DNA of 55,678 nucleotides. It comes from Isotricha intestinalis. Taxonomy: Eukaryota > Ciliophora > Litostomatea > Vestibuliferida > Isotrichidae. Shown one piece after another: positions 2,986 to 24,754 of the stretch; position 1 is the first letter of the stretch, and each line of letters begins with the position of its first letter. The notes under the pieces are model-generated. The model did not search any database. It had not been told where the DNA came from and saw only the letters and a list, made by a program, of their open reading frames with translations. The stretch lies in contig JAJJLU010000396.1 in NCBI GenBank assembly GCA_023807065.1, positions 1-55,678 on the forward strand. The letters are read 5' to 3'. The translations under genes and the position numbers were made by a program.

Positions 2986-4788
2986 TTAAAAAATAATACA
3001 TTTACATTTTGTATTAGTTTGAATTTCCCCTAATTTATCATCCATACTTTTTGTTCTTTGTCTCCTTCTTTTAATATGTTCTTTACTTTTCTCGTTAATA
3101 TTATTTAAATTTATATCATTAATATTCAATTCTTTTTTTTCATTAATATCATTATATTTTTCTTCTATTTTAATTTCATTTAAAATATCATCATTATTTT
3201 GTCTTTCAGTTGTTTCAATTTCTATTGTTTTTATACTTTTAGATATTTTTTTATTTGACATAAATCCATTTCCTCTTAAATTTGTATTATTTGTTTGATA
3301 ATATTCATTATTTAATTCTCCTTTTATTACTTTCTTTGAATTTTTTTTTTGGATATTTCTAGAACTTAAATTTTGAAATAAAGGAGTTGGTTCTTCTTTA
3401 TTACTTTTATATTTTTTCATTTTATAATTTTCATCAATTTCATTATTTTCATTATTATAATAATTGTTATTATTATTATTATTATAATCCTCATTGAAAG
3501 AAACATCATTTTCATCATAATTTTTTTTTCCATTTAAATGAATATTTAAAGTACTATTACTTCTAATTTTTTTTTTCTTAACATAATTATTATTCCTATT
3601 ACTATTATTATTATTATTTTTAAAATTATTAGAATTATAATTATTATTATTTTTAGAATTACCAATTTGATAATCAGTATCTTCTTCAGTAGTTTCTTGA
3701 ATAAAAACTTTACTATTCCTTAAATGATTTTTAACTTCATTATCATCTTCATTATCATTATCTTTTTCATTTTTTGATTCATTATTTTTATTAACAATTA
3801 AACTGACATCTCTAGATTTATTAAGTAAATCATTTTTAATAAAATCTAAAGTATTATTTTTTTCTTGTTCCAAACTTAAATGTTCTAAAAAATTTTTTTT
3901 CCAATCAAAATCATAAAAACAATTATTACAATATTTATTAATCATAGTTTGAAACAACCCAATTAAAAACTCATAATCAGGTTGATCTTCGAAATTTAAT
4001 TGATCACAATATTTAAAATATTTTAAGAATTCATCAGGATGACCTTTAGTTAAGAATTCAAAAGAAGTATTGATTTTTTTTTCAGCGATTTTTTTAAATT
4101 GATCTTCACCAGGTTTAATTTTTAATCCTTGCCAAGGTAAACTTCCTAATAAAAAATACATTAAAACATAACCAATACTTTCAATATCATCTCTTCTACT
4201 TTGTTCAAAACCTCTATGAGCATTTCTAGCACAATATCTTGCTGTTCCTGTAAGAGATTTTCCAGTTGAAAATTTAATATGTTGTTTTTTACTTGTTGAA
4301 TAATATTTTTTCGATAAACCAAAATCAATAATATATATTTTATTCTCGTTCTCATTTATTCCTGTCATAAAATTATCTGGTTTAATATCTCTGTGAATAT
4401 GATATTTTGAATGTACATATTTTATTCTAGTTATCATTTCTATTCCTAATACACAAACTGTTTTTAAGGAAAATTTCTTTTTACATGAATTAAAAATTTC
4501 TTCTAAAGATTTTCCTAAAAGTTCTTGAACTAATATATTGTGAGTTTGATTATTTCCGTAACAATATATTTTTGGAATTCCTTCATTTTGAAGATATATT
4601 AAACGGTAAGCTTCTGTTTCTAATGTTCCTTGTGATGATTTTTCTCTTTTCTCCATTTTTATTGCTACTTTTTCTTCAGTTGATATTACTCTTCCTAAAT
4701 ATACTGTTCCAAAAGAACCTTTTCCTATTCTTTTTATTATTTGATATTTCGAAAATATTATTTTGTTCAAGTATGCTTCTTGAGACAT
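2986..4788 (-). CDS. Casein kinase 1 family Ser/Thr kinase with C-terminal CaaX-like box
   Basis: A 600-residue protein. The kinase domain covers about residues 15-300: glycine loop GKGSFG at 22-27, catalytic lysine in VAIK (Lys44), HRDIKPDN with Asp134, and DFG at 155-157. The segment GTARYCARNAH corresponds to the CK1 signature that replaces the usual APE motif, placing it in the CK1 family. The C-terminal half is Asn/Lys/Glu-rich with short Asn runs. The protein ends in CKCIIF, so the last four residues CIIF fit a CaaX prenylation box with a second Cys two residues upstream that could be palmitoylated. Membrane anchoring is therefore likely. Animal CK1-gamma is also membrane-bound, but through palmitoylation. 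Kinase identity is firm; the subfamily is not. Confidence 0.93.
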   Translation of the reverse strand: MSQEAYLNKIIFSKYQIIKRIGKGSFGTVYLGRVISTEEKVAIKMEKREKSSQGTLETEAYRLIYLQNEGIPKIYCYGNNQTHNILVQELLGKSLEEIFNSCKKKFSLKTVCVLGIEMITRIKYVHSKYHIHRDIKPDNFMTGINENENKIYIIDFGLSKKYYSTSKKQHIKFSTGKSLTGTARYCARNAHRGFEQSRRDDIESIGYVLMYFLLGSLPWQGLKIKPGEDQFKKIAEKKINTSFEFLTKGHPDEFLKYFKYCDQLNFEDQPDYEFLIGLFQTMINKYCNNCFYDFDWKKNFLEHLSLEQEKNNTLDFIKNDLLNKSRDVSLIVNKNNESKNEKDNDNEDDNEVKNHLRNSKVFIQETTEEDTDYQIGNSKNNNNYNSNNFKNNNNNSNRNNNYVKKKKIRSNSTLNIHLNGKKNYDENDVSFNEDYNNNNNNNYYNNENNEIDENYKMKKYKSNKEEPTPLFQNLSSRNIQKKNSKKVIKGELNNEYYQTNNTNLRGNGFMSNKKISKSIKTIEIETTERQNNDDILNEIKIEEKYNDINEKKELNINDINLNNINEKSKEHIKRRRQRTKSMDDKLGEIQTNTKCKCIIF

Positions 4789-5182
4789 TTGGGTTATTTT
4801 AATTTTTTTTTATTATTATTTTTAGGCTTTTTATTTTTTTTTTCAAAAGAATTATTGTTAATAATAATATTTGAATATAAGTAATTATTAAAAAATGTTT
4901 AAATTATATTAAATTAATTATTATTTGTAGATTGAATTAAATCAAAAATTTATTTTTTATTCACTAAATTGTTAAATGATTTTTAAAATGTAATGATAAA
5001 TAAAGATAAAAGATTTAGAAAAAAATAAGTGAAATCAAACCATTTAATATTAGAACAGATAAAAACAAACAATTTAATATATAATGAATAATTCCAAAAA
5101 AAATAAATACTTTAAAATAAATTTATTTATTTATTAATTTCTATATGAATATTCACATAATAAAACAAAAAAATAAAAAAAC
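4789..5182. other. Intergenic spacer, nothing recognised
   Basis: This 394 bp of A/T-rich DNA lies between the start of the casein kinase gene and the stop of the giant E2-E1 gene (both minus strand). It must carry the kinase promoter and the 3' UTR of the giant transcript. No open frame, repeat or RNA fold stands out. Confidence 0.6.
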
Positions 5183-8100
5183 TTATTTTTGAAAATGAAC
5201 TCTCACAATAGGAATATCTTTTAAATAAGTATCATCTTTTTCATTTAAAGTAAAAGTAACCATTAAATCAACATAATTATCTTCTTTAACTCCAATTAAT
5301 TCAATTAAATTTTTATTCAAAATTTCCTCATTTAAATTTCCTTTATCTTTATAAGCCATATAAGAATAAATAGCTTTTTTTCCTTTGAAAATATCTCTTG
5401 GAAACAACATATATTTATTTTTCAAAATATCAAAAAGACTTTTAATATTACATTTATCTTTCTCTAAATTTATTTCCCATCGATCCCATAAAGTAGTAGA
5501 TAAATTATTATGAATAACATTTTTTTTACAAATTCCAGGTTCAGAACTTTGTAAATAAGGAATAGCTAAATTTAAAAAGGAATTTCTATAATTTTCAAAT
5601 TTAATATTCTTTGCAATTTTAACTAATTCAATTGATTGTAAAGCAGCAATTGAAGAAGTTGTTGTTGCTAAAGCAGGAATAATTCTTCCTGCTTTTATTT
5701 TTACTGTCATCCAATCCATTATCTCTAATTTATAATTTCTACAACGTAAAGCACTCATTGCATATATTATATCTATATGAAAATTTAAATCATTATCTTT
5801 TTCAAATTCTGTTGGATTTAATTTCATATTAAAACCTTTTTGAGATATTATTTCTTTTAATTCTTTTATCATTAATTCATCTTTATCTGATGTTGATATT
5901 TCATTATTATCATTTTTATTTTCTTCTTTTTTTTCTTCTTCTGTTTTTTTCCCTTCAGATTCTTCTACTTCTTTTTCAATTTCTTTTAATTTTTCTTCGT
6001 TAGGTTTAAAATCTTCCACTTTAACATTTTTGATCTTAGAACACATATCAATTTTATTTTTATTATCTCTTGGTTTATCATAAGGAATTTTAATACCAAA
6101 CATATTTGCAATTAGACAAGAATAAGCACTAATAAAATCAACACATAATTGATCATCAACATTAAACTCATCAATTACAGGAGGTCTTTTAGGTAGAGAC
6201 CAAAATAATTTTCCATTTTTATCTTTTTTATCAATAGGATAAGCGTATAATAATTGTTTAATATTATTAACAAAAACTTTATTAAATTTCTCTCTAGCAA
6301 TAATTAAGCAATCATTAAAATTATTAGGTTTCTTCTTAATCCATTTAATAGTTTTTTTAACTAATTTAATTTCATCATTTGAGTAATTTCCATTTTTAAA
6401 TTCATCAATGACTTTATTAAAACTTTTAGGTAATTGAGTGAAAATTTTACCAAATTGATCTCTTGCCCATTCAACACAATGAATAGCTTCTTCAGGGAAC
6501 ATTTTTAAAGTACATTGAGGAATATCATTACTAACTTCAGGATCATTTTGAGAAGAATAACTTTCAGTTTTAAAAGGAATAATAATTTGAACATGACCTT
6601 TTGGTCCTAGTGTTCCACTTTCTAATAATGGTTTTCTATTTGATACACATCTTGAATCTACATATCTTCTTGCATTTATATTATCTAATGCATTTGCTAT
6701 TAATGATAATGATGATATGAAATTATCTGAAAATATATTTTCTGTTTCTTCACATAATTTTTCTATTTTTGCAAAAATATGATTTTTTAATAAAGGATTC
6801 ATTTGAATTACTGCAGCTGCAGCTGTTGAACTTTTAGGAAGACGAAGATGTTTTTCTCTAAATAAAAATTGCCTATTTAAATTGCTTACTTCTATTATAT
6901 CTGGATCTGTCACATATATTGAACCATTTTTTCCTGTTCCTAATGATAACATTGAAAAATTCTTTAATAATTCACAACCAATTGCTCCAGCTCCTACTAT
7001 TAATATTTTCATATTTAATATTTTTTCTACTGTCTCTTCACCTAATATTATTTGAAGTGTATCTGTACGATTTTTTCTTTCTTTATAATTAAAATTCTTT
7101 ATACTTGTTTCTATTGATTTTTCATCATTTATATTTATTTCAGGAATAAATTCTAATATGTCTTGAAACATTATTTGCTTTATTGGAGTATATTTATTTG
7201 TTATTGCCTTTATTGCTTCTTGAGATGCAAATCCACCAAAATATGCACAAAGACATGGGAATTGAACCATATGAGTAAATGATATGTAATATAATATTTT
7301 TAAGTCTTCTTCTGAAAATTGTGATTCTTTTGTTTTTATTGTATTTATGAATAAAGATGAAAATTTTAGAGACCATGGCTCTATTTTTTCTTTATATGTT
7401 TTTTTTAATGTGTTTATAGTTGATATTGATAAATTTATTAAAGGACCATTTTTCATTTTTGAAAAATCACTTATTAACATATTGGGATCTGTATATTTTT
7501 CACATATTGATTGATAATTACTACTATTAACATTAATAATATTTTCAATAGGATCAAATTTAATTAATTTCTTTTGTTTAATTTCTCTACAAATACCATT
7601 TCTTTCATATTTCTTATCTTTAAAAATTTTAAAATCTCCAATTAGATTAAATGTACCAGGAGTAAGAACTTTAACTTTAAATTGTTTTTTATTAATTCCA
7701 TCTAAACCAACAACTTCATTAACTTCAATAATATCATCATCAACAAAATCATGTCTAGTACCATCTAAAACAGTAATAAGAGCTTCGTTATCATTTATTA
7801 TTTCAATATTTTTAACCATTACTTCTTTAGCTTCTTCTCCGTCTTTATCATTAACAATGAATTCATTTCCAAAATCATTTATTAATCTCCCTACAGAACC
7901 ATAAATATCACATGAAATAAATTTTTTATTACTTTTCCTACAATAATTATCTATTGATATTAATATATCATTATCACATTCAGTTAATATAATAACATCG
8001 AAATTTTTTAATATATCATTAATTTTATTTTCATCACATGATAATTCAACATTAGAAGATTGAACTTTAACATAATAATTTAATTCTTGTAATTTCTTAA

Positions 8101-11100
8101 CAGAACATTCAGCTCGATTTTTTCCAATATCATTTTCAGAAAGGAAAAATTGAGAAGATAAATCATAAAAATTAGTATTTTTATTATCATGAAGAACAAA
8201 TAATTTACATCCACTTAAAACTAAATTTTTTGCTATTTCAATTCCTAATCCACCAGCTCCACTTAAAAATATAGAAGAATTAGCTTGTCTTTGAACAGCT
8301 TCAATTCCCATTGCTCCTATATATCTACTCCATCTATCTTTTACTTCATCATCATTTAAATTTAATTCTTTATTTTCTATCTTTTTATTTATATTATCTT
8401 TATCATATGTCATATCTACATTATCAATATTTTCAAATGTTATTTTCTCACTTTTTTTCTCTTTTTCAATTTTCTCATCTTCTGCTTTCTTCTGTAAATC
8501 AGAAGGTAAAGGAAGTGAATTTAAAGTTTTTTCTAATTCAACATATATTTCATTCATCATTTGAGTATAAGCACCAGGTTTACTCATTTTAGTAGCTAAA
8601 TTAGAATTATGTTCTAAACTAAAAGAAGAATATTTTGCTTCTGCTACTTTACTTCTTTCAATCCAACCTTTAACTTCTTTTAATATTTGTTCTCTTTTCA
8701 AATAAAAATGTCTTTGAATAACTTCTTCAAATCCAGGACTAGGTTTTCTAATTTGTTCAATCATAGCATATTTAATATTAGAATATCTAACAATATTAGA
8801 ATAAGCTTCATTTTTAGCTTCTCCTTGTGGAGTTCCCATTTCACTTTCACAACTAGGTTCATTAAAATATACTAAATCACTCATAATAATTCCTTGAATA
8901 GAAATTAAAACTTGTAATAAAGTTGAAATTTTAGGATCCCAATTTTCAGTAGATTGTCCTCTCCAAGTTCCAAGAAGTGAAAGACAAACTTTTCCATTAG
9001 AATATAAATTAGGATTAAATCTAGTAGTACCACCACCAGTAGTCATTATAGTAACTTTAGGTGGAGCATTTGGATATTGACCATCGAAGAAAACATCAAA
9101 TTGAAATGCACCATTACTATATGGAGTACCTTCACTTCCCATTATAAGTACTTTCATATAATCCATATTATCTTTATCTACTCTTACATATATTGAATTT
9201 GTACTTTCTATTGGAAGTGATCTTGGTAAATCTGCGAATTCTTGGGCTAATCTTATTGCTTTTCCACTTGATGGATTTCCACTTACACTATTTGAATAAT
9301 AATGCTCAAGTTTACCTGATTTATTCTTCATTGACATATAGTCAAATGCAAATTCACGTAAAAGTAATGGGTAACTCTTCTCTACTGGAAGTTTTAATAT
9401 TTCTGTATAATTTTTCTTATTATCTAAATGAATTTGATATGATTTAATATGCTTTGTTACTATGTCAAATGTACGCATTATTTCATTTGATAATTGTTCT
9501 TCTGTTGATTTTGTTTTCCCAGTTTCTGCACTTTCATGTTTTAATGCATTCGCAAATATTTTAGTGCCATCATTTAATAAACTTAATAATGTATATACAC
9601 TTTGAGTTTGAACTGGTTTATAATCTTTAGATATATCTAATAATAAAGGTATTAAAGATGGATTTTTTGATAATTTTATTGTCATATCTAAATATGCATA
9701 ATATAATTGTGCTTCTTTTGCTAATTCTAATAATGTTCCTCCTCTATATGCGCTTTCTAAACAAGGTAATATTGAACTTTCTAAAAATACTCTTAATGTT
9801 TTATCATCTATTTGCATATCACTTGTATCAAAGAAATCTGTTAATAATTTTATTATACTTGCAATTTGTAAAGAATTACTCTTTTTTCCTGCTAAATATT
9901 GTGTTACATCCCATGTTTTATTATCTCCTGTTTGATCGCTTCCATATCCTACTCCTCTCTTTAATTTTTTTTTACCTGTTAAAACAAATAAATTTGGATT
10001 ATCTTTTTTATCATTTGAGTCTTCACTTTTCTTTTTTTCTTCTTCTTTTTCTTCTCCTGGGGAATATTTTCTTGGTTTTTCATGAGTTAATAATTCTAAT
10101 CTTTCAATTATACAATTAAATATTCCTTTTTCAATTGCTATTTTTCTTAATTCACCAGATCTATTTTTTGAAAAAGAATTTCCTAAAATTTCAAATATAT
10201 ATTTTGAAACATCTGTTCCTTCTTTTTTAATTGAATTTTCATTATCATAAAAACCACAAAGTAAATTAAATAATATTGAAGAGCATTGTTGATGACTAAT
10301 TAAAGAAGCGAAAAATGAAGGAAGTTGACAAAATATTTCTAAATCATCAGTCCATTTAATCCAAAAATCAATTGCTTCTTTATTAGTCCATTTTTGAACA
10401 GTAGATTTTAATACACTAATAATATTTTTTATACCTTCTAATTTCTCAAATTCTTTAAATATAGGTAAATCAGGCGCATAATCCATTAATTCATAATCAA
10501 TTTTTATTTCTCTTTCATCTTTTGATTCAATTTCATTTGTATTTAATTTTAAATCTCTTAATGAAGAAACTTCATAATATATATCTGTGATATTATTTGA
10601 ATCTGAGTATTTTGGAATATTTTCTATTATTACTTCATTTGGAATTTCTTCATTATTTAATAAATTATTAAAAGGAATTTGATCAGAAACAATCATATCT
10701 TTTATTCTTTTAAAAGGAATATTAGAAGGAAATTCAAATATAGGATTATCTCTAACAGTAGCAATAGGATGGTTGGTATTGTAATATTTATTTTGTTTAA
10801 CAATATTCAAATTTAAATTTCCAGTTTCATTAATATATTTAATAGGAATTATCTTACTTATATTAGAAGAAATTCCACCTTGCTTTTTTTTATCATCAGC
10901 AATAACAGTTCCAATATAAACTTCATAAAATTTAATGTCAGTATCAAGAAAATTATCCATTTCATTACTTTTTCCAAGAGGAATATTTTCAATAAATGGA
11001 TTTATTGTAGAAGAATCATTTTCAGTTAAATTTAGATTAATTAAATCTGAAACAGTTAAATAATAACAATCACTTTCAATATTTAATGAACCTAATTCAT

Positions 11101-14100
11101 AATGATTACCTGAAGATTCAGGTTTTAAAGAAGCAGTAATATATTTTTTATTACATATTTGACATAATAAATTTTCATTATTTTCAAGAGGAATAAAATT
11201 AATATCATCTAAATTTGATTGATTAGAAGGAAGATTTGGAAATAATCCATTATAAAAGAAAAATGTCATTGGCTTTTTATCTAAAAATAGTGAATCCATT
11301 GATAATGGATACATTATTATTAAAAATGGTCCTTGATTACATACTGTTGAAATTAATTGTTCTTTTATTTTCTTTGAATCTAAATCTTTTGATGAAAATA
11401 TTTTTTTAAAATTATATTTTTTAAATTTTTTCCCTGGTTCATATTCAAATGAAGTAAATAAATTTGAAAATAAATTTTGAATTTCTATATTTAAAGAAGA
11501 ATCAATTAATATTGATTTTAATTTTTCTTCTTGAATATTTTTCTTTGAAGAATCTTCATTATAAAAATATGATGAAACTAATTTAGGTTCTTTAAATAAA
11601 CTATCCATTTGTTTTTTATCTTTTGAATTATTATTTGAATCTGTGGTTTCTTCACTTGAAGCATTATCATTTGATTCTAAATTACAATAACTTGAATATA
11701 TATTTTTCACATTTGAATCTATTGGATGAATACATATATTTGTAGTTCTTTCTATTTTTAATAATGGAATTAAAACATGGTTAACGTAATTTTTGTCATT
11801 TTTTTGTCTAAATAATTCTAAATCTTTTATTAATATTTCTCCTAATTTTTTGTGACATTCTGGATAATTGCTTATACAATTTTTCATAAATATTACAACA
11901 TTATTCATAAAATCTAAATTATTATTTATTAATATTGTATCACTTTTTTCTTTCTTATTTTTAATACAATCAAAGATTTTGAAATCATAATCATTTTCTC
12001 TTACTAATTTAACGAAATTTTCACTGAAACTCATATTTTTTAACATATTCATTAAATATAACATATTTTTTCCTCTTATTCCATTTGTCACTTCATTAAT
12101 AAACATTTCACAATAATATTTTGCTGAGTTTCCTTCTATAAAGATTTTTTCATATTCTTTATTATTACATACTAAATATGATATTATTTCTAAGTAATCA
12201 TAAATATAATTTTTTTCAAATAATTCATTTAGAATTTTTAAAGAATTTTTAGGTTGACATAATTGACTTGTATCAATGCTATCTTCATTTAATTTTAATT
12301 TTTTATTTGGAATTAATAAAATTGAAACAAAAGATAATATTTCTTTCTTAATTATGGTATATTTATTAATATTATAAATAATATCTCTCAAATCTTCAAA
12401 ATTGAAATTCAATTTAATTTCATTATGAAAAGGAGAAAGTAATAAACCATTAAGAGATAAACAGAAATATTTCATAAAATTAGAAATATTTAATAATTTC
12501 TTTTCATTTCCTTCATTATAAGATTTTTTAACTTCTTTCAAAATAAAATTAATGAATTTATTAATTCTCTCATCTACATATTCTTGACTGTTTTGAGTAA
12601 TTTCAACAGCTAATTTAGCATGAATTTCACTATTTTCAACATTTAATAATCTATTTAATAACCATTCACCTAATTCAAAATTATATTTAGAAACATTAAT
12701 TAAAATCCTACTTAAAATATTAGCATGCTTAGAAATATAAGGTTCAAAAGAATTATAAATTTGTTTAATATTCTCAATAAATGCTTTATCTTTAGCAATA
12801 TGTTTTAAAGTATTAATAAATTCAGTAGTAAATATTTTACTTATTATTGTAATAGATATATTTTTTTCTTTTTCTTGAATATATTCTAAAACTTTATAAT
12901 TATCAATTAATTTTTCTCCAATAATAGAAACACAATTAATTGGAATTGAACAAATTCCATTATCAATTTTTTGACTGTGAGAATTTTTAGTAGATAACAT
13001 AATAGGTCTTCTAATAATAAATTTAAAATATTTTCCTTGACATTTAATTAATTGTTCAATAAAATTATCAATATAATTATCATCATCTTTTAGCATATCT
13101 GGTCTATTTGAAAAGAAATTAAATCCAAAAGCCGTTATTCCTTTTTCAAAATAAGCAGCATCACTAATTTTATCTAATTTAATACAAGTATCAAATTTAT
13201 TTAAACTTTTTCCTACTTCTAAATAAACTGTTGGTACATCACCAAATATTTTATCAGTACTTAAAGAATTATAATGATTGAAAGTAATTAATATTTCTTT
13301 TACTTCAATTATATCAGTTAATCTAAAAATAAAAGTATCTTCATAGAAATTTTCTTTTTTAAGTTCTCTTGAATAAATTTGTCCTGTTGAAGGTATTTTT
13401 TTATTACTCCAGTTATAATTACTTATTGCAGATAATTTAAATTTAGGATCTCCTTCTAATAAATCTATTTTATTTGGAGAAGCAAATTCTTCTAATTTAA
13501 ATTTAGATAAATCTGTATTTAATTTATCATTTTGTTTTTTATCATCTTTATTTTTGTTTAAAGGAAAAAATAATGGTTTATATGGTTTCCCCATTTTGCC
13601 ACTTTCTTTTAATATATTTGAATTTAATTGATTTTTATCATCTTCTTTTTTATCTTGAGTATCATATAAATCATTTAATGATTTTAATAAATCTTCATTT
13701 AAATCATTTGCCATTATTTCATTTTCACTTTCATTTTGTTTTTTATTATCAGAATTTATTTTTTCTTTTCTATGACTAATAATTCTGTCAATGAAAAATT
13801 TAAATCCTTGTAATTCAAAAGCAAAATATTTAGTAATAGTATCATCAATTAAAAATTTACCTAATAAATTTTTTAAAGTTTTAAAAGTTTTATCAATTGT
13901 TCTAATACCATATTTTAAACTCATTTTTTCATTTTTAATTCCATTAATAACATTTTCATCTATTTTTCTTACAATTTTCATAATTTCAACTAAGCAAATT
14001 TCAATTAATTCTTTTCTTTGAGCATAATTATCTACAATATTTTCAACATAATTCCAACATTTAATAACACTTCGGATTACAGGAGAACACGTTGTTTTTT

Positions 14101-17100
14101 CTTTATGAATATTAAATATTAAATATATTAAATAATTTCTTAAAGATTTTTTAAATTCTTCTTCTTCTATTTCTTCTTTTGGTAAATTATTAAATAATTG
14201 CAATGAAAATGAATTGATTATTATTAATAAATTTTCAATTGCTATTATTCTCTTATATAATATTTGATTTCCTGAAACTGCTCCTCCAAAGGCAGAATAA
14301 TTTAAATGTAATAAAAGGAATTTCCCAATTTCAATATATAATTCTTTAACAATTGATAAATGTTCTTTATTTTTTTCTATATCTAAATTAATACTTGTTA
14401 ATAATAAATCAGATTGTTTATGAATTGTTGCATAATTTCCATATAATAATATTTCTGTTAAAATATGAATAAAATCCAATAAACACATTTCATTTTTTTC
14501 ATTAGCACAAGATTTAATTATTGCCACGAACACTTGCATAATTTGATAAAACATATTTTGTTTTAAAGTATGTGATTCTTGTTTATATAAAGTCAAGAAA
14601 ACATTTGTAAATTTAGTATATAATAATTCTTGAATACCATAATCTAATTTTAAAAATGAATCAACCATTAATTTTTTAAAATTATTATTGTAAAACATCA
14701 TATCTAAATTCCCTCTTTCTAAAATATCTGTTAAATATTTCCAAAATGAATTTACATTACTAAAACCTATTTTTGAAGTTTTATTAAATTTAACAGCAAT
14801 TGAAATGAAGTTTTCAATTATTTCATTGTTATTCTTTTTTATTATTACTTCTGATTCAGAAGAAATTTCAGAATTTAATGAATTTATTGAATAACAATTA
14901 TTTAATAAATTTAATATATAATCAAATTTTTCTTCTTCTTCTTCATTTAATATTGAATTATTTATTTGTTGAATAAATTCTAATGTTTTTTCTTGAATTG
15001 TTAAAATTGTTTTATCAAAATTTTTAATTGGTATTTTTACCTTTTCTTCTTTTTTAATTTTATCATTTAATAAATCATAAGGATCAATAACTAAATCAAT
15101 AATTTTAGATAATTTATCTTTTATAATTTCTTTTTCCCATAATTTATTTAAAATTTCAATTAAAAATTTAACAAACTCATTTGTTGAAATTTTTTTTAAA
15201 TTATTTTCTCTTTGAGATTTAACATATTCATGAGTTAAATTTAATATTTGAGCTAAAAGTAAACAACTCATATCAGAAGAAATTTTTAATTGTTCATCAT
15301 TATCAATTAATTTTTTTGTAATATCAATAAATATTTTAATATACTCTTCTATTGAAATAGGTAATTCAATTGAATTTTTTATTTTTGTTATTAAAATCAC
15401 TGTTAAAATTGATATTTTATAAAATATATTTTTGAAATTTTCTTTAGTCCATTTATTATATTCTTCATCAGAAAAACATTTTTGGAATTCTTTCAAAAAT
15501 AATTCATTATCTATATTTAATTGATTAAATATATTTATTAAAGTCAATGCATTCATATAAACATTTTCTTTATTTAAATATAATTCAACTAGTTTACTAA
15601 ATAGATTATTCACATTTGTTTTATTTTCAGGAAGGAAAAATTTCTTTTTTGTAAAAGTATAAACTTCTTTATTTAATTCTTCATTTGCACTTTCATTAAA
15701 TAAAGAAACAATAATTAAATTTTCAATAAAATTATTGTCAACAATTAAATTTTCATCATTTAAAATATTAATTTCATTCAACATAAACTTAATAATTTGT
15801 AAATTTAAGCTTAAACTTTCATTAAGATTGACAGGTAAATTTAATTTATTTATATCTCTTTGAATTTTATTTGCTCTACTAATTTCTACAATAGTCTGTT
15901 CTTTATGTTTTTGAATATCTTGAACTAGTTTATTAACAATATTTTTAATATTAATTTTAATACATTCCCCATTTTCATTTAAATCAATAGCATATTTAGC
16001 TTTTAAAGTTCCAATATTATCTTTATTGTCTTTTTTAATAATATCATGATTGTTTTGTCCTTGGAATATTATAGTATATTTTTTAGTATCTTTAATGAAT
16101 CCTTTTATTTTTTTATATTCACCATTAAAAATGTCTTTTTTATCATATTTAAGATGATTTGATACAAATATCTCATTAATTGTTTTACAAAGATATACTT
16201 GATTAGAAGTTACTTGTCCATAGATTATAGGTACTATTTTTAATGAAGGAAAAGTTTTTATATCATTTGTACTATCATTAATAGATATATTAATACAAAT
16301 ATATCTTGTTGTAAAATCAATTTCATCTTTTTCAAAATTATATATTAAACTTCTGAAATTGTAATTCCCAAACATAGAAAAAGTATTTTTTTTATCATCA
16401 TTATTTTTATTTTGTGAAGATGAAGAAACATTTTTTGTTAATTGCCTCCAAACATGATCATAATAATATTTAAATAATTTTATTTCATAACATTTTTCAT
16501 TAATTGAAAAAATATTGACTCTGAAATTGTAAGTATTTAAATTGTTTAAAATTGTAGAATCATTTTGGCTAAAATCTAATTTAATTTTATTAATTGAATT
16601 AACAGAACCCATATCAATCAAAATATTCATTAAGTCATTATTAAACATAACAACACTTAAATAAGATAAAGAATTTTTTAAATCTTCTTTATTTTCATTT
16701 TCTTCACTTTGAGAGTCTGAATTTGAATTATCATTAAATTTATAAAAATCAAAAGGATATTCATCTTTTAATAAATGACTATTAATAAATATTTGTTCAT
16801 TTGTTTCAAAATTTTGTTCTTTAATAATTTTAATACATTTTTTAATAATATTTATTGCTCTCTGAGTAAATTTACCTTTTTCAACATTATATATTTTAAT
16901 TATACTAAATAAATGATTTAAACCATCACAAGTATATTGTAAAGATGAAATATCACTTAATATTTTATCAAGAGATGATTCTATAATATTATTTGCTTTT
17001 GGATTTTCAACTGCAGTTCTTAAAAAATTAAATGATAAAGAAGATAAAATATTATTATTATTTTCTATTAGATTATTCTTTATTAAATTATAATAATCTA

Positions 17101-20100
17101 TTTTTAATAATATTTCATTATTTATTCCTGGTAATTTATTAAATAAATATTTTAAATATTGTAATATTGCAATTCTTTTACTAACATCTATTTGATTATT
17201 ATATATATAAGAACTTAGGAATAAATTAAATTTATTGAAATTTTCAGTATCAAGAATTAAATTATGGAAATTATTATTAATTAAAATAGAATTATTGATT
17301 AAATCATCGTTAGTCATTAAAAGATTCTTATCTAAATCTTTAAAAGAAATAAAACTACAAGAAACACCAATAATATCAAAATTATCATTATTAGAAACAA
17401 TTTCAACATCGATAGTATCAATTTTTTTATTTTTAAATTCATCATTATTTATACTATTTTTACTAAAAAAAAAATGAGAATTAATATCATTATTATGAAT
17501 AATACTATTAATTTCAATTTCATCAATTTTGGCAATATTATAAACATTATTAATATCATTTTTTAAATATCCATTAACATTAACAGAAATATTATTTAAT
17601 AATTTATTTTCACCTAAAGTATTTTTAATATAATTTTTCTTATCATCAACACTAATACTTTCTTCATCTAAAACTTTCCCTTCCACACCAAAAAATAATA
17701 AACTCATTAATTGAGTTTCAAATTTATTAATATTATCATCTCTTCCATTGGTAGGTAAAAAATAAATATAATTACAGGTTTTTTTCTTAACTACATTACT
17801 TTTAACCATTAAATTATTTCCCATATCAATAAAGCAAACAGGATCATAATCATAAAAATCTTCATTGTTATCTACTTTATTTTGATATAATTTTTTAAAA
17901 TCACTTAATTTAAAATTACTATATTTTCTTTTAGCAATTGGAATACTTTCTAAAGAATTAATTAAAAAAACGCATCCTTTACCAAAAGGTAAATCTGAAC
18001 TTTTAGGTGATTCATCACTAGAAACAACAATATTATCTATTATCATTGGATTATTTTGAAGATGACTAAATAAATAATCTGGTTTTGGATAATTTGAAAC
18101 AAATCTATGATCATTAAATAATATACTACTTATATTTATTGTATTTTGAGATTGAGCTCCTTTAAAATCTACTATTGTCAAAGGAATAAAATCATTTATT
18201 TTATTAAAGGATTCCATTGATAATGCTGTGTTTTCGACAGGATTTAATGTTTGTTTTATTTGAGTTTTATCATTTATTTTGTTTTCTAATTTTATTTTTG
18301 GATTTAATAATATATCAATATTTGATAAAAGGATAAATTGGTTATTTGATAAGTAAAGAGTTTTTTTTTTGGATGTATTATTAAAATATATTTTATTATA
18401 TTCATTTGGATTTTCTGTTTGAGATTTTATTAATCCTTTAACATTACTTGGGTTATTTGATAAATTTATATTTACTCTTTGGAAATCAAACATTTTGGAA
18501 AGTAATATTATTTCTTTTTCTGATAAAGCATTAATATCTAATTTTTCTATATCTATATTTTTTGGTTCTTGTTGTATTTTTATTTCTTCGTTTTTATCTT
18601 GAGAATTATTTATTATTATATCTATTATATTGCATTCATCATATATTTCAAATTTATATATTTCTTCTTTTGAGTTAAATTGAGGAATTATTTGCTGAAA
18701 TGATGGTATTTCTTTTTCAAATTTTACTGGTTTTATTTTTTCTTGGTTATCAATTGAAAGATATCCTTTTTTATTTAATAAATAAATATAATTTAAATCT
18801 TTGAATATTTTAACTTCTGATAAATTTAAATTTTGTTCAATGGATTCGAAATTTTTTTTAATATCAATTTCTTCTTTATCTTCAATTTCTTCAATTATAA
18901 TAGAATCTTTACCTATATCATTGAGTTTTTCTTTATTTTTAATATTAAAAATAAATATTTTATTTTTCTCTTTTCCAACTTCAGCTAAAATACATAATTT
19001 AATTTCATTTTTATTATCAAAAACATAAGAATCAAAAACTTGTGAAACAGAAATAGATAAATGTTTTTCTTCAATAGGAATTAAATGATTATATATATTA
19101 TCTTTATTTTCTCCTAAAAATAAAGGGTATAAAGTATTAATATTATCAAAATAATATTCAGTTAAATTTTGCATAGCAGATTCAATAGTAGAAAATTTTT
19201 TTTGATTAATATTATTTTCAAAGTTATTATTTTCATAACGAATAAAATCTTTGGGAACTAAAATATTAATCATTAATTTATAAGTAACAATTATCATTCT
19301 TTTGTTAATATTATCAAATAAAATAGCAATTAAAATGAAAGGAGCAAAAGGTTCATTTGAATTAGAATTATAGCAAATAAAAACATATTTTATAATAACA
19401 TCTTTGAAAAGATAATTAACAATATTTTTATTGTCTTTATCATTATTAATATTATTAATAATTTTATCATCTTTTTCTTCTTTTTTTTCTTCATTTTTCT
19501 TTTTATAAGCTTCTTCAAATTCTTTTAATTTTTCAATTGGAATATCATTTTCACACATTTCACATTTTTTAGTTCCTTTTTCATTCATAAATGTACAAAT
19601 AGTACATTGCCATTTTCCAATTATTCCTTCTTCTTTTTCTTTATTTTCTAAAGGATCTTCTTGATTTCCATGTTCTAATAAATATTCTAATGCTTTTTCA
19701 AAATCATTTCCATTTAGTTTTAATGCATTTTTACATGATGTTTTTGAAAACCCCATTTGATTCAAATTATTAAAAAATTTTTGATTTACTTTAAAATCCT
19801 TTTTATCATCTTTTATGTTATAATTTTGAGATTCTATTTTAATATCAAATACTCCTTTTTTATTGTTTAAATTATTTTTCGGGTCTAAAAGTGAAGTTAT
19901 ACTTTTTATATTATTATTATTTTTATTTAACCAAAATATATCTTTTATTTGAGTAAAGTTTTCTATTTTTTCAATTCCTTGCAAAATATTAAATCCTCCT
20001 AATTTTAATAAACCTAATTTATAATTATATATATTGACATCACCATTTTTTGAACAAGTGACAAATAAAGGATAAGATTTATTAAAAGAATATAAATCTA

Positions 20101-22372
20101 TTTTATAATTAGGATCATTATTTTCCACTGTATAATTCATATTATTAATTGAATAAGAAACTGGAATAATAGGATAATATTTAATTAAAGGAGAATTTGA
20201 TATATAAGAAGGGAAATATTCATTTAAATATTTTTCTATTTTTTCTTCATTTATAAAAGTATCTGTATTTATTAATCTTTCATCATAATAATATAATTTA
20301 AGTTCATTTGTAAAAGAATTTTCACAACGAAAACCTTTATCACTTAATTGAGTAATATCTTGTCCTTCATTAAAAGGATAATTAATAAAAGAACTTAAAT
20401 TTTGAAAAGAACTATATAAATTATTATCAACAATAATTTTTTCATTTGGATATTTTACTAATAATTGAGTTAAAATTTTATTAATTAAATATTTCATTTT
20501 AGTATATTCTAAATTATCATTTATTATATAATCAGAATATTGTTCATATGAAATTGTAATTTCAGATTCATCTTCTTTACTTATACTTTCACCATCATTA
20601 TTATATGCAAATGGTAATTCTTCATATAATTGTTTATTATCTTTTGCTTCTTGAATTTTTTTTTCTTTTAAAGGTTTATTTTCTTTTAATTCTTTTATTT
20701 CTTTATCTTTATTATCTTTATTTTTTAATTCTTTCTCTTTATCTTTTTCCTTTTTATCTCTTATGATATTTTCTAATTGATGTTGTGATTTTGAAATTAT
20801 TGATTTTATAAATAAATAATCTGATAACAATGAAAAAAAATGAATTCCATTAAACATTGGAAATAGTATGTAATTATTTCCTATTTTTTTCCCATGTAAT
20901 AAACCTTCAAAAAAGTTTCTTACATATACAAATTTTGTTTGTGAAGGTGAATTACATAAAAATTTCTCAAATTCGAATTTTTGAACTAAAAATTTTAAAT
21001 CATCATATTTAATTAATATAATATTTTTATCTTTTTCTTCATGAATTTCCTGTAAATATATATAATTAAATTGTCCATTATTTCCTCTTTTTATAATTTT
21101 CATTTTATTTCCTTTAATTATTAACATTGAATCATTTTGAGGTAAATAATTAATATTAAAATCACTTTTTTCTTCTTTAATAACTTCCTTTATTGTTTTC
21201 ATAAAATCAAATATATCTTCTTTATTTGATTCAATGTAACTTTTTTGTAATTGAACAGCAGATTCAACTGAGAACTCTTTGACGAATTGAATTTGTTTAA
21301 AATTATCAATTAAATACTTTATGATTTTTTCTTTGATATTATTTTCTTCAGGTTGAAATTTATAATTTAAACATGATAAAAATAATTTTTTATGAATATA
21401 TCTTAAATCAAAATTAACTAAAAGTTTCTTTGAAATTTCTTTATTATCAGAATATTCCATACAAGATAAATTACTATTTATACATAAAGAAGAAAATTTA
21501 TTTTGTAAATCAAATATATTTTTCTTATCTTTAAATTTTACAATGAAAAAACCATTAAGAAATCCTTTATCATTTATATCACCTAAAATAAATTTAACAT
21601 CAATTTTTTTATTAAAAGAATTATTAAAATAATTATTTAATCCTTGATTATTTTCAACAAAAATTTCTTTTTTAGAATCAGTAGTAAATATCATTATTTT
21701 TTTTAAAATATCATTTTTATATTTAGAAGTATTATAAATAACATGGGGATCTAAAATAACAGAAGTATTTTTTTTTTCAATAAAAATACAAGGATAAACA
21801 GCATCTTCTTTAAACTTTAAATTTTTTTCATATAATTCTCCATTTAAATAAAAAGAAACATCACAATAATGATAATTAATTTCTAAAAGGACTTTTCTTC
21901 TAGAACTATTTCTAAAAGATCTTGCATTTTTTTTATTAACATTTCCTTTTTCAATATCTAATTTAGAGCACATTCCAAAAAATAAATTTGAACAAGAAAT
22001 AGGACAAATTAATTGAATAATAACTATTCCTTTTGGAATTAAATTATTTACTACTACAAATTCATCTGTAAAATGATCTGAATTTAAAGTTGCAATTGAT
22101 CCTCCTCCTGATATTTTTATATTTTTTGATGATAATAATGTTGAAAATTTGGCACTTATTGAATGATTATTATTTATTTCATTCTTTTTATTTTGATTAT
22201 TCTCTTTTTTTTGCTTTTCTACTTTTTTTTCGTTTAAATTTATTATTTTTGTTTTTTCTTTTAAAGGAAATTTTGAATATAATATTCCTTTTTCAAGATA
22301 TATTATTTCACCTGTTAAAGGATCTTTTGTAGACCATTCTATTTCTTCTTTTTCCATTTGAGCATTTGACAT
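5183..22372 (-). CDS. Giant BIRC6-like E2 fused to a complete UBA1/UBA6-type E1 (single polypeptide)
   Basis: One open frame of 5,729 codons without introns. Domains in order: SPRY-like region (about 80-205); UBA (about 861-905, with the MGF motif); NZF/RanBP2 zinc finger (about 916-945, CxxC-x10-CxxC, with Thr-Phe after the second Cys and Met before the last, the ubiquitin-binding NZF signature); beta-sandwich/discoidin-like regions (about 1910-2060 and 2985-3160); a helical region containing [16 protein letters not shown], matching the segment before the E2 in animal BIRC6; UBC domain (about 4368-4530, [20 protein letters not shown], catalytic Cys4463, then the BIRC6-type HFYLKREQI helix). 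After a charged linker (about 4560-4670) a full E1 follows: inactive adenylation half with GAGGLG, FCCH (about 4837-4914), active adenylation half with GAGAIG (5127-5132) and NLNRQFLFR, catalytic Cys5287 in [9 protein letters not shown], SCCH, and ubiquitin-fold domain to the end. Both enzyme halves keep their catalytic cysteines. No canonical BIR domain is visible. It would activate, transfer and bind ubiquitin in one chain. UBA1 versus UBA6 type cannot be decided by eye. Confidence 0.93.
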   Translation of the reverse strand: [5729 protein letters not shown]

Positions 22373-22954: not shown

Positions 22955-24754
22955 TTAAATATCATCTTCATTTAGATTTTCATTTTCATTAGACATATCT
23001 TCATTAATAATTTCTTTCATATTCTCATTATTATTATTATTAATATTTATATTATTATTACTGTCATTACTTTTTTGATGATCTGTATATATTTCATCAT
23101 CAATGATATCTTTTTCATCATTAATATTAAACTTAGTATTCCTAACAAAAGCATTATCTTCATCTTCATTATTAATTTCTATCATTCCTACTTCTTTATC
23201 AATTAATTTTTCATTATTATTATTATCATCAATAAGTATTTCATTTTTAATTTCTTTTTCATTATTTTTCAATAAATTTTCTTCCGATTTTGCCAAATTA
23301 AACAAACCAAAAGTTTTAAAAATTTTCATTAAAAATAAAAAAATAAGCGGAAAAGAAAAAATAACAGAATAGCAAAAAACAAAAGCACAACCTAAAATTC
23401 TCAATCCAGTATAATCTCTATCATTACTTATCCAAAAGAAAAAAAGTGAAGTTTCAATAATATTATAATCACTATAAATACATAAAGTACTAATAAAAAT
23501 ATTTAATAATGAATAAAATAGTGAAATAATAATAAAAAAAACATATGGAATTTTATTACCTTTCCCAATACATTTATTTAACCAAAAACAATGATGTTCT
23601 AATCCTTCAATACATTTATCACAAATAAAACAATGTTTAATATTTTTATTTTTCAAAACAAAACATTTAGGACAATAATTTTTAATATCTTTGTTTTGAT
23701 CAATTAAATATTTTAAAGGATTTTCTCCATTTGCATCTCTAATTAATTCATCATTTTTAACATAACCAGATTCAAAAGATAATAAAAGAAAATAACTTAA
23801 TAAGCAAAGAATAAATAAACCTAAATTTCCATAAATTAAATATTTTTCATAATTATCATTATTTAAAAAAGGTAAAATTAATGTAACAACAATAATTTCA
23901 GGTAAACAAATAATAACCCAAATAAATTTCTTATAAATATTTTCTGGTCTTATATAATTAATAGGCATATCTAAAGAACATAAAGGATTAAAATCATTAT
24001 TTTCAAGCATATTATAAATTTTATAATATTTATTCTTATTAGCAATATCAATGGGAAATTCACCTTTTAAATTTTTAATATTTTTATCAGCACCACTTTG
24101 TAATAATTTCAAAACAATTTTTTCTTTATTACTTTGGACAGCTAAATGAAGAGGAGTGAATCCTTCTTTATCTTTAGCATTAATACTAGCATTTAAACTT
24201 AATAATAAACTAACAGTTTCTTCAGCTCCAGAATAACAGGCCCAATGTAAAGGAGTAGACCCATATTCATCAATAGAGAAAATATCCTGTGATTGATAAT
24301 GTATGAAATAAACCATTATTGATGGTTGATTACTCTCTGCTGCAAGATGCATTACATTCTTTCCTCTATTTGTCACACTTTCCACTTCAGCTCCATTCTC
24401 TATTAGAAATTGTGTTATTGGGATGCTACCTTTACATGCAGCATAATGTAATGCAGTGAAGCCCTCTGATGTCTTCTCATTCAGGAATTTCAGGAGTTGG
24501 GATGAAGAACCTAAACCAAAACGCTTTTTCAATTCAGAGATTATCAAATTCGTTAAAGGAAGAGAGTTCATAAACACTGCTCGATGAAGGCAAGTGTAAC
24601 CATCTGCTTCTTTTAGTAACCAAACTTTGTTAGATGTGTCACTAAAGTATTGTTGGATGAGAGATGTATTTTGGGATTTTATAGCTGAAAAAAATTCAGA
24701 TGATGTTATTTGATTGTCTAAGTTTAAATTAGAATTTGAGGATTTGCTAAACAT
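22955..24754 (-). CDS. Ankyrin-repeat DHHC-type S-acyltransferase with an EHHC core
   Basis: A 599-residue protein. Residues about 45-255 contain six or so ankyrin repeats (recognisable cores such as GFTPLHLAVQ and GSTPLHWACYSG). They are followed by four hydrophobic membrane segments and, between the second and third, the zinc-binding cysteine-rich domain CPKC...HCFICDKCIEGLEHHCFWLNKCIGKGN. This is the Akr1/ZDHHC13/ZDHHC17 architecture: ankyrin repeats recruit substrate and the cysteine of the core (Cys389) takes the acyl chain. The aspartate of the DHHC core is replaced by Glu386. The C-terminal tail is acidic and Asn-rich. It shares an 82 bp divergent promoter region with the next gene. 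Activity is likely but depends on Glu replacing Asp. Confidence 0.9.
   Translation of the reverse strand: MFSKSSNSNLNLDNQITSSEFFSAIKSQNTSLIQQYFSDTSNKVWLLKEADGYTCLHRAVFMNSLPLTNLIISELKKRFGLGSSSQLLKFLNEKTSEGFTALHYAACKGSIPITQFLIENGAEVESVTNRGKNVMHLAAESNQPSIMVYFIHYQSQDIFSIDEYGSTPLHWACYSGAEETVSLLLSLNASINAKDKEGFTPLHLAVQSNKEKIVLKLLQSGADKNIKNLKGEFPIDIANKNKYYKIYNMLENNDFNPLCSLDMPINYIRPENIYKKFIWVIICLPEIIVVTLILPFLNNDNYEKYLIYGNLGLFILCLLSYFLLLSFESGYVKNDELIRDANGENPLKYLIDQNKDIKNYCPKCFVLKNKNIKHCFICDKCIEGLEHHCFWLNKCIGKGNKIPYVFFIIISLFYSLLNIFISTLCIYSDYNIIETSLFFFWISNDRDYTGLRILGCAFVFCYSVIFSFPLIFLFLMKIFKTFGLFNLAKSEENLLKNNEKEIKNEILIDDNNNNEKLIDKEVGMIEINNEDEDNAFVRNTKFNINDEKDIIDDEIYTDHQKSNDSNNNININNNNNENMKEIINEDMSNENENLNEDDI

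Follow-up and report, generated by a model that had tools for sequence, protein, structure and literature searches.

A BIRC6-like ubiquitin-conjugating domain and a complete ubiquitin-activating enzyme in one reading frame of the ciliate Isotricha intestinalis

The stretch of DNA analyzed here (the window) comprises the 55,678 nucleotides of Isotricha intestinalis contig JAJJLU010000396.1, one contig among 2153 in assembly GCA_023807065.1, and carries on its minus strand a single open reading frame in the standard code (22372..5183) that runs from ATG to TAA with no internal stop and encodes a giant protein of 5729 amino acids. In its C-terminal part a ubiquitin-conjugating (E2) domain, UBC, is followed within the same uninterrupted frame by a complete ubiquitin-activating enzyme (E1). 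An earlier note, made from the sequence alone, had described one unbroken frame joining a BIRC6-like UBC domain with catalytic Cys4463, a charged linker and a complete UBA1/UBA6-type E1 with GAGAIG at 5127, catalytic Cys5287 and a C-terminal ubiquitin-fold domain (UFD), and each of these elements is borne out by the analyses described below. Its coordinates (5183..9300) hold for the E2–E1 stretch, but the E2 domain begins at about 9328 and the gene extends to 22372.

The E2 half contains a UQ_con Pfam domain (amino acids 4389–4497, E 3e-23), with Cys4463 in a GKVC motif. In phmmer searches of PDB the first match was BIRC6 (E ~1e-71) and the next UBE2O (E ~1e-37), and the top fold matches of the model predicted for the region upstream of the E1 were likewise BIRC6 UBC structures (3ceg and 9qim); this region was folded separately from the E1, and its model is of middling quality (mean predicted local distance difference test score, pLDDT, 69.8; predicted template modeling score, pTM, 0.56). 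Similarity to BIRC6 is not confined to UBC, as hhalign aligned amino acids 4013–4576 with BIRC6 4170–4786 (probability 100, E 1.1e-91) and, upstream of UBC, amino acids 4013–4307 with BIRC6 4170–4497 (probability 99.1, E 3.8e-19). In the model, residues 4013–4348 are mostly helical with one low-confidence stretch. By these similarities the protein appears to be of the BIRC6 type, a label that carries no claim of anti-apoptotic function.

Closer to the N-terminus, a UBA-like domain and a RanBP2-type zinc finger were detected by Pfam (Table 1), and a weak hhalign match relates residues 652–800 to the BIR and WD40 region of animal BIRC6. This stretch was compared by eye across 15 aligned ciliate proteins, some of which display BIR-like wording; no zinc-ligand set is visible in that alignment. 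The BIR domain PF00653, which in the BIRC6 family interrupts a WD40 propeller near the N-terminus, was found neither in the window protein (at E 0.01) nor in the precomputed Pfam lists of the 67 fused giant matches described below. The stretch is a possible degenerate BIR. PF12356, the Pfam BIRC6 domain, had no match in the window protein and none in the I. intestinalis genome; because control genomes were likewise without a match, its absence from this genome is unproven. Outside the gene, positions 22955–24754 of the window encode ankyrin repeats fused to a DHHC palmitoyltransferase domain.

All elements of the canonical ubiquitin E1 set (IAD, AAD, FCCH, SCCH, and UFD) are present in the C-terminal half, the UFD being recognized through model and alignment. 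Pfam detected two ThiF stretches (2.7e-76) together with the SCCH and FCCH domains, and the catalytic Cys5287 lies in a DIPQC motif. Against PDB the best match was human UBA6 (1e-183), with UBA1 structures at 5e-176 and weaker, and the match stops no more than two residues short of the C-terminal end. E-values of this order leave no room for a chance resemblance. The AlphaFold2 model of this half has a mean pLDDT of 88.2 and a pTM of 0.86, with 78–94 per ten-residue block in the UFD. Its three best fold matches are the E1 chains of the fly UBA1–BIRC6 and human UBA6–BIRC6 complexes, followed closely by other UBA6 and UBA1 structures, and the match extends over ∼1070 alignment columns; the same two complexes rank among the top fold matches for both parts of the protein.

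The linker between the two halves is rich in charged residues (12 K, 8 D, and 9 E among 54 amino acids) and is probably disordered, as its pLDDT is 40–52 per ten-residue block in a model built from a 19-row alignment. Its length is restricted. In 114 fused proteins E2 and E1 lie 72–100 amino acids apart (median 79), with E1 lengths of 800–1121 in the same set. Within the linker a motif, (I/V)D-x-x-Y, recurs, D4653 being kept in 110 of the 114 proteins and Y4656 in 84, and the remainder of the linker is variable.

Table 1. Features of the fusion gene and its product (positions in the window; amino acid numbers refer to the 5729-residue protein)
Feature	Position	Strand	Basis or remark
Whole gene, giant fusion protein, 5729 aa	5183..22372	-	stop TAA at 5183-5185
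Possible degenerate BIR, aa 652-800	19973..20419	-	hhalign, animal BIRC6 272-419 (BIR + WD40 region), probability 63.5
UBA-like domain, aa 863-906	19655..19786	-	Pfam PF22562, E 1.1e-7
RanBP2-type zinc finger, aa 919-942	19547..19618	-	Pfam PF00641, E 1.4e-6
Pre-UBC helical region, aa 4013-4348	9329..10336	-	hhalign to same region of BIRC6; predicted model
BIRC6-type UBC (E2) with conserved C-terminal helical extension, aa 4349-4624	8501..9328	-	sequence, Pfam, model
E2 catalytic Cys4463 codon	8984..8986	-	Cys in 116/116 fused proteins covering the position
Charged linker, aa 4625-4678	8339..8500	-	low predicted confidence, probably disordered
Linker motif VDMTYD, aa 4652-4657	8402..8419	-	D4653 and Y4656 conserved
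Complete UBA6/UBA1-type E1, aa 4679-5729	5186..8338	-	Pfam, PDB matches, AlphaFold2 model
E1 FCCH, aa 4861-4932	7577..7792	-	Pfam PF16190, E 4.4e-15
E1 catalytic Cys5287 codon	6512..6514	-	Cys in 119/119 fused proteins
E1 SCCH, aa 5293-5558	5699..6496	-	Pfam PF10585, E 1.9e-63
E1 UFD, aa 5629-5715	5228..5488	-	Pfam PF09358, E 9.6e-5, under cut-off; confident in model

The fusion is widespread in ciliates and not peculiar to one genome. A search for giant proteins, spanning roughly 3150–10000 amino acids, returned 75 matches, and 67 of these have an E2 as well as an E1; from a search with the E1 as only query (∼580–1850 amino acids) the best 120 of 4282 matches were taken, and at least 50 of these carry both. 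Altogether E2 and E1 occur together in 119 of the 197 proteins examined, a count that includes the window protein and a second fusion copy from the same genome and divides into 68 giant proteins and 51 of up to 3000 amino acids; several of the shorter ones begin within the E2 and are probably cut. Named carriers are Tetrahymena utriculariae, T. malaccensis, four Paramecium species, Moneuplotes crassus, and Pseudocohnilembus persalinus, so that the same fusion, which the earlier note had proposed to look for in relatives, is present in named ciliates as well as in assembled transcripts; among the named carriers of the listed matches, heterotrich and karyorelict ciliates are absent. The remaining giant fused matches are EukProt transcripts or come from unnamed contigs, and assembled transcripts of relatives cross the E2–E1 junction (P0027, P0028, and P0117). 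In the giant matches the fused part is 37–99% identical to that of the window protein, the 99% identical fusion lying on a contig of 14.9 kb (P0002). Database names of the fused proteins refer to a single domain or enzyme (UBC core domain-containing protein, ubiquitin-activating enzyme E1) or are hypothetical. The other eight giant matches have an E2 but no E1. Seven of them are BIRC6-like proteins of animals, and the eighth is P0076, a protein of 4513 amino acids that has a BIRC6-like UBC and a PF11976 domain, which we take to be Rad60-SLD, and is perhaps a protist BIRC6 relative without the fusion.

Catalytic residues are intact in both halves. The E2 cysteine is retained wherever the position is covered, three further fused proteins being truncated before it, and on the E1 side the catalytic cysteine, the N-terminal arginine R4683, R5167, D5230, and both Asp residues of TDPD (D5156 and D5158) are found in 119 of 119 fused proteins and K5180 in 118 of 118. 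On a motif-based assignment, the motifs that hold R5167, K5180, and D5230 appear to be those around Arg515, Lys528, and Asp576, which are the residues named for human UBA1 in a review of E1 enzymes (PMC12355090). A FastTree analysis that included all 119 fused E1s placed them in one clade, which also holds 18 E1-only proteins. Of the latter, 16 start within the E1, and the other two start before it, P0108 in the tail of the E2 and P0097 within the motif of the linker; judged by these start sites, every one of the 18 seems to be a truncated or split model and not a free E1, which counters the idea that true unfused members exist within the fused clade.

Two loci with both parts were found in the 57.3 Mb I. 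intestinalis assembly, namely the giant gene and a frame on a second contig (C167; L024:2408-8209) that encodes 1934 amino acids and is 59% identical to the giant protein across the E2–E1 part. This short fusion aligns with residues 3938–5727 of the giant, its first ∼156 residues being unaligned. A likeness of its N-terminus to a COP9 subunit is unsupported, the first 175 residues giving only a chance-level match against PDB. The earlier note had raised the question of a separate UBA1 or UBA6; a UBA1-type E1 of 1038 amino acids with many stand-alone relatives is present (C322), and among the 33 of 43 candidates that were scored neither a stand-alone UBA6-type E1 nor a stand-alone BIRC6-type E2 was found. 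Fifteen other E2 matches in the genome are ordinary (weak, 28–37% identity). Beyond C322, UBA1-like E1 paralogues occur on C1330, C1270, C297, and C1825 (L026, L027, L028, and L033, respectively), with long branches where they were placed: in a quick tree the E1s of C1270 and C1330 fall with those of ciliate UBA1 type, and that of C297, a contig on which one match contains an in-frame TAG, forms an adjoining long branch. A "ThiF family adenylyltransferase" assigned to an archaeal metagenome-assembled genome (P0233) is 69% identical to the UBA1 of this ciliate; given this identity, its contig appears to be a ciliate one that was placed in an archaeal bin.

We lean towards reading the gene as a natural self-charging E1–E2/E3 chimera, in which the protein's own E1 would pass ubiquitin to its own UBC, either in cis or within a dimer. 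In such a mechanism the UBA6-like E1 would adenylate ubiquitin, presumably the modifier, and capture it on Cys5287, after which the UFD would dock on the tethered BIRC6-type UBC and the ubiquitin would be handed to Cys4463. The giant N-terminal scaffold, with its UBA and RanBP2 zinc-finger modules, could choose the substrate that receives the ubiquitin. The linker, if flexible, would allow the E1 to reach its own UBC, or the UBC of a partner should the scaffold dimerize like mammalian BIRC6, which is described as a dimer of antiparallel chains whose C-terminal UBC is flexible (PMC10827748). A pairing of these enzymes has precedent in mammals, where UBA6 and BIRC6 are reported as the E1 and E2/E3 for LC3B (PMC6863627) and UBA6 is enriched in purified BIRC6 complex (PMC10827748). 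The constrained E2–E1 spacing and the preserved residues support a working transfer.

That the fusion is an error of assembly or gene modeling is exceedingly improbable, and for the family it is ruled out by the recurrence of the same junction: 119 proteins share it, they come from many different contigs and sources, and P0002 and assembled transcripts are among them. The frame here is free of stops. Another reading is a precursor that is cleaved in the linker, so that a BIRC6-like E2/E3 and a UBA6-like E1 come to exist as separate proteins; the linker, being probably disordered, would be accessible. Against this are the motif conserved within the linker and its constrained length, and a chain that is cut would give little reason for keeping giant and short fused proteins alike, so that we hold cleavage to be very unlikely. 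A more serious contender, although still a doubtful one, is that charging is mainly intermolecular or directed toward other E2s, the protein being a scaffold-anchored, general UBA6-like E1 whose tether only raises local concentration. The length and low predicted confidence of the linker, the ordinary E2s of the genome, the possession by the E1 of every usual domain and the solution of UBA6 structures with a different E2, UBE2Z (9ykv and 9ylb), all fit such an enzyme, yet the spacing is kept even though the fused parts of the giant proteins have diverged widely in sequence, and a stand-alone BIRC6-type partner was not found among the candidates scored. The self-charging reading has its own weaknesses. 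Catalysis by the fusion is read from sequence; the Pfam match of the UFD, the domain that recruits E2, falls below the cut-off; when everything upstream was compared by hhalign, the rest of the BIRC6 armadillo region was unmatched beyond the pre-UBC stretch and one weak N-terminal match, which bears on dimerization of the scaffold; the assembly may be incomplete, the search for stand-alone partners covering 33 of 43 candidates and the tree leaving aside the partial E1 frame of C1825; and, as regards ancestry, one topology test leaves an alternative standing.

In trees of the E1 half, proposed by the earlier note as a check, the fused E1s grouped with UBA6 and not with ciliate UBA1. A quick tree of 60 rows separated animal and ciliate UBA1 from UBA6 plus the fused E1s with a Shimodaira–Hasegawa-like approximate likelihood ratio test (SH-aLRT) value of 98 (fused clade 100), a careful tree of 48 rows gave the same split with bootstrap/SH-aLRT of 100/99 (fused clade 100/100), and a third tree, of 21 rows, again put the fused E1s with UBA6 and left UBA1 outside. 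An alternative is that the fused E1 is a duplicate of ciliate UBA1 that came to be paired with BIRC6 independently within ciliates, a view that concerns origin and is compatible with a self-charging mechanism. Run on 48 rows, the approximately unbiased (AU) test did not reject a tree in which the fused E1s were forced together with ciliate UBA1 (cost 18 log units, p-AU 0.129), whereas on 21 slower rows, picked after the 48-row result was known, the same constraint lost 41 log units and was rejected (p 0.0003). The columns diagnostic of UBA6 versus ciliate UBA1 are few and mixed: a relaxed count of residues shared with UBA6 only versus ciliate UBA1 only gave 9:5 at the 70% level, 6:2 at 80%, and 3:2 at 90%, and a strict four-group comparison favored ciliate UBA1 by 3 to 1 at 70%. 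The fly BIRC6 complex, which uses UBA1 according to the title of 9qgg, also speaks for the duplicate; the PDB scores, like the relaxed counts, favor UBA6. On balance we consider descent from a ciliate UBA1 duplicate unlikely. Rooting by the genome's own UBA2-like outgroup was discarded for its branch length of 6, and as this root is unusable the fused clade could be a sister of UBA6 or an older branch. Taken at its widest, the proposal is of a ciliate-wide E1, E2, and E3 cascade in a single polypeptide that would load its own E2 in cis and freeze an ancient UBA6–BIRC6 partnership older than the split of ciliates from animals or amoebae, and on this wider proposal we see the chances as evenly poised.

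E1 and E2 are usually separate proteins in eukaryotes, their contact is brief and one E1 is normally shared among many competing E2s. A natural fusion in several ciliate groups is a ready-made experiment on the intramolecular E1 to E2 step and offers a stable handle for trapping the transfer, in a molecule that may run the whole ubiquitin tagging pathway; the tractable ciliates Tetrahymena and Paramecium carry it. It is also independent evolutionary evidence for a dedicated pair of BIRC6 and a UBA6-like E1, a link that biochemical and genetic work on mammalian cells has shown.

Bacterial Cap2 proteins likewise combine E2 and E1 in one chain, with the E2, according to the earlier note, before the E1. 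Where the E1 review treats Cap2, it presents it as an E1–E2-like fusion, places such fusions in prokaryotes and states that the target activated by Cap2 of the cyclic oligonucleotide-based antiphage signaling system (CBASS) is a CD-NTase and not a ubiquitin-like protein (PMC12355090). In contrast to prokaryotic Cap2, the ciliate E1 is of the eukaryotic type with two ThiF stretches, and because the matches of the two halves to BIRC6 and UBA6 of eukaryotes extend over entire domains a separate origin seems likely. No description of a eukaryotic or ciliate E2–E1 fusion was found in the open-licence literature searched, consistent with the earlier note, which knew of no eukaryotic example, although an earlier mention in older surveys of E1-like or E2 families is possible. 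With animal BIRC6 (BRUCE, Apollon) the fusion protein shares giant size, the class of UBC with its C-terminal helical extension, a near-identical context of the catalytic cysteine and similarity over ∼300 amino acids upstream of UBC; it differs in giving no BIR or PF12356 match, in having a UBA domain and a RanBP2 zinc finger, and in continuing into a C-terminal E1 where animal BIRC6 terminates. UBE2O, an E3-independent E2, is a comparable large E2/E3 hybrid and the second-best E2 match, but is far less similar than BIRC6 and is served by a separate UBA1 in solved complexes, according to the entry titles. UBA6 and UBA1 share with the ciliate E1 the fold, the complete E1 domain set and the catalytic residues, but are free enzymes, whereas the ciliate E1 has its N-terminus attached to an E2. 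UBA6 enzymes activate ubiquitin, in vertebrates FAT10 as well, and charge E2s specific to UBA6. What is new is the single-chain E1–E2/E3 layout in a eukaryote; each half taken alone is a member or a near relative of a known family.

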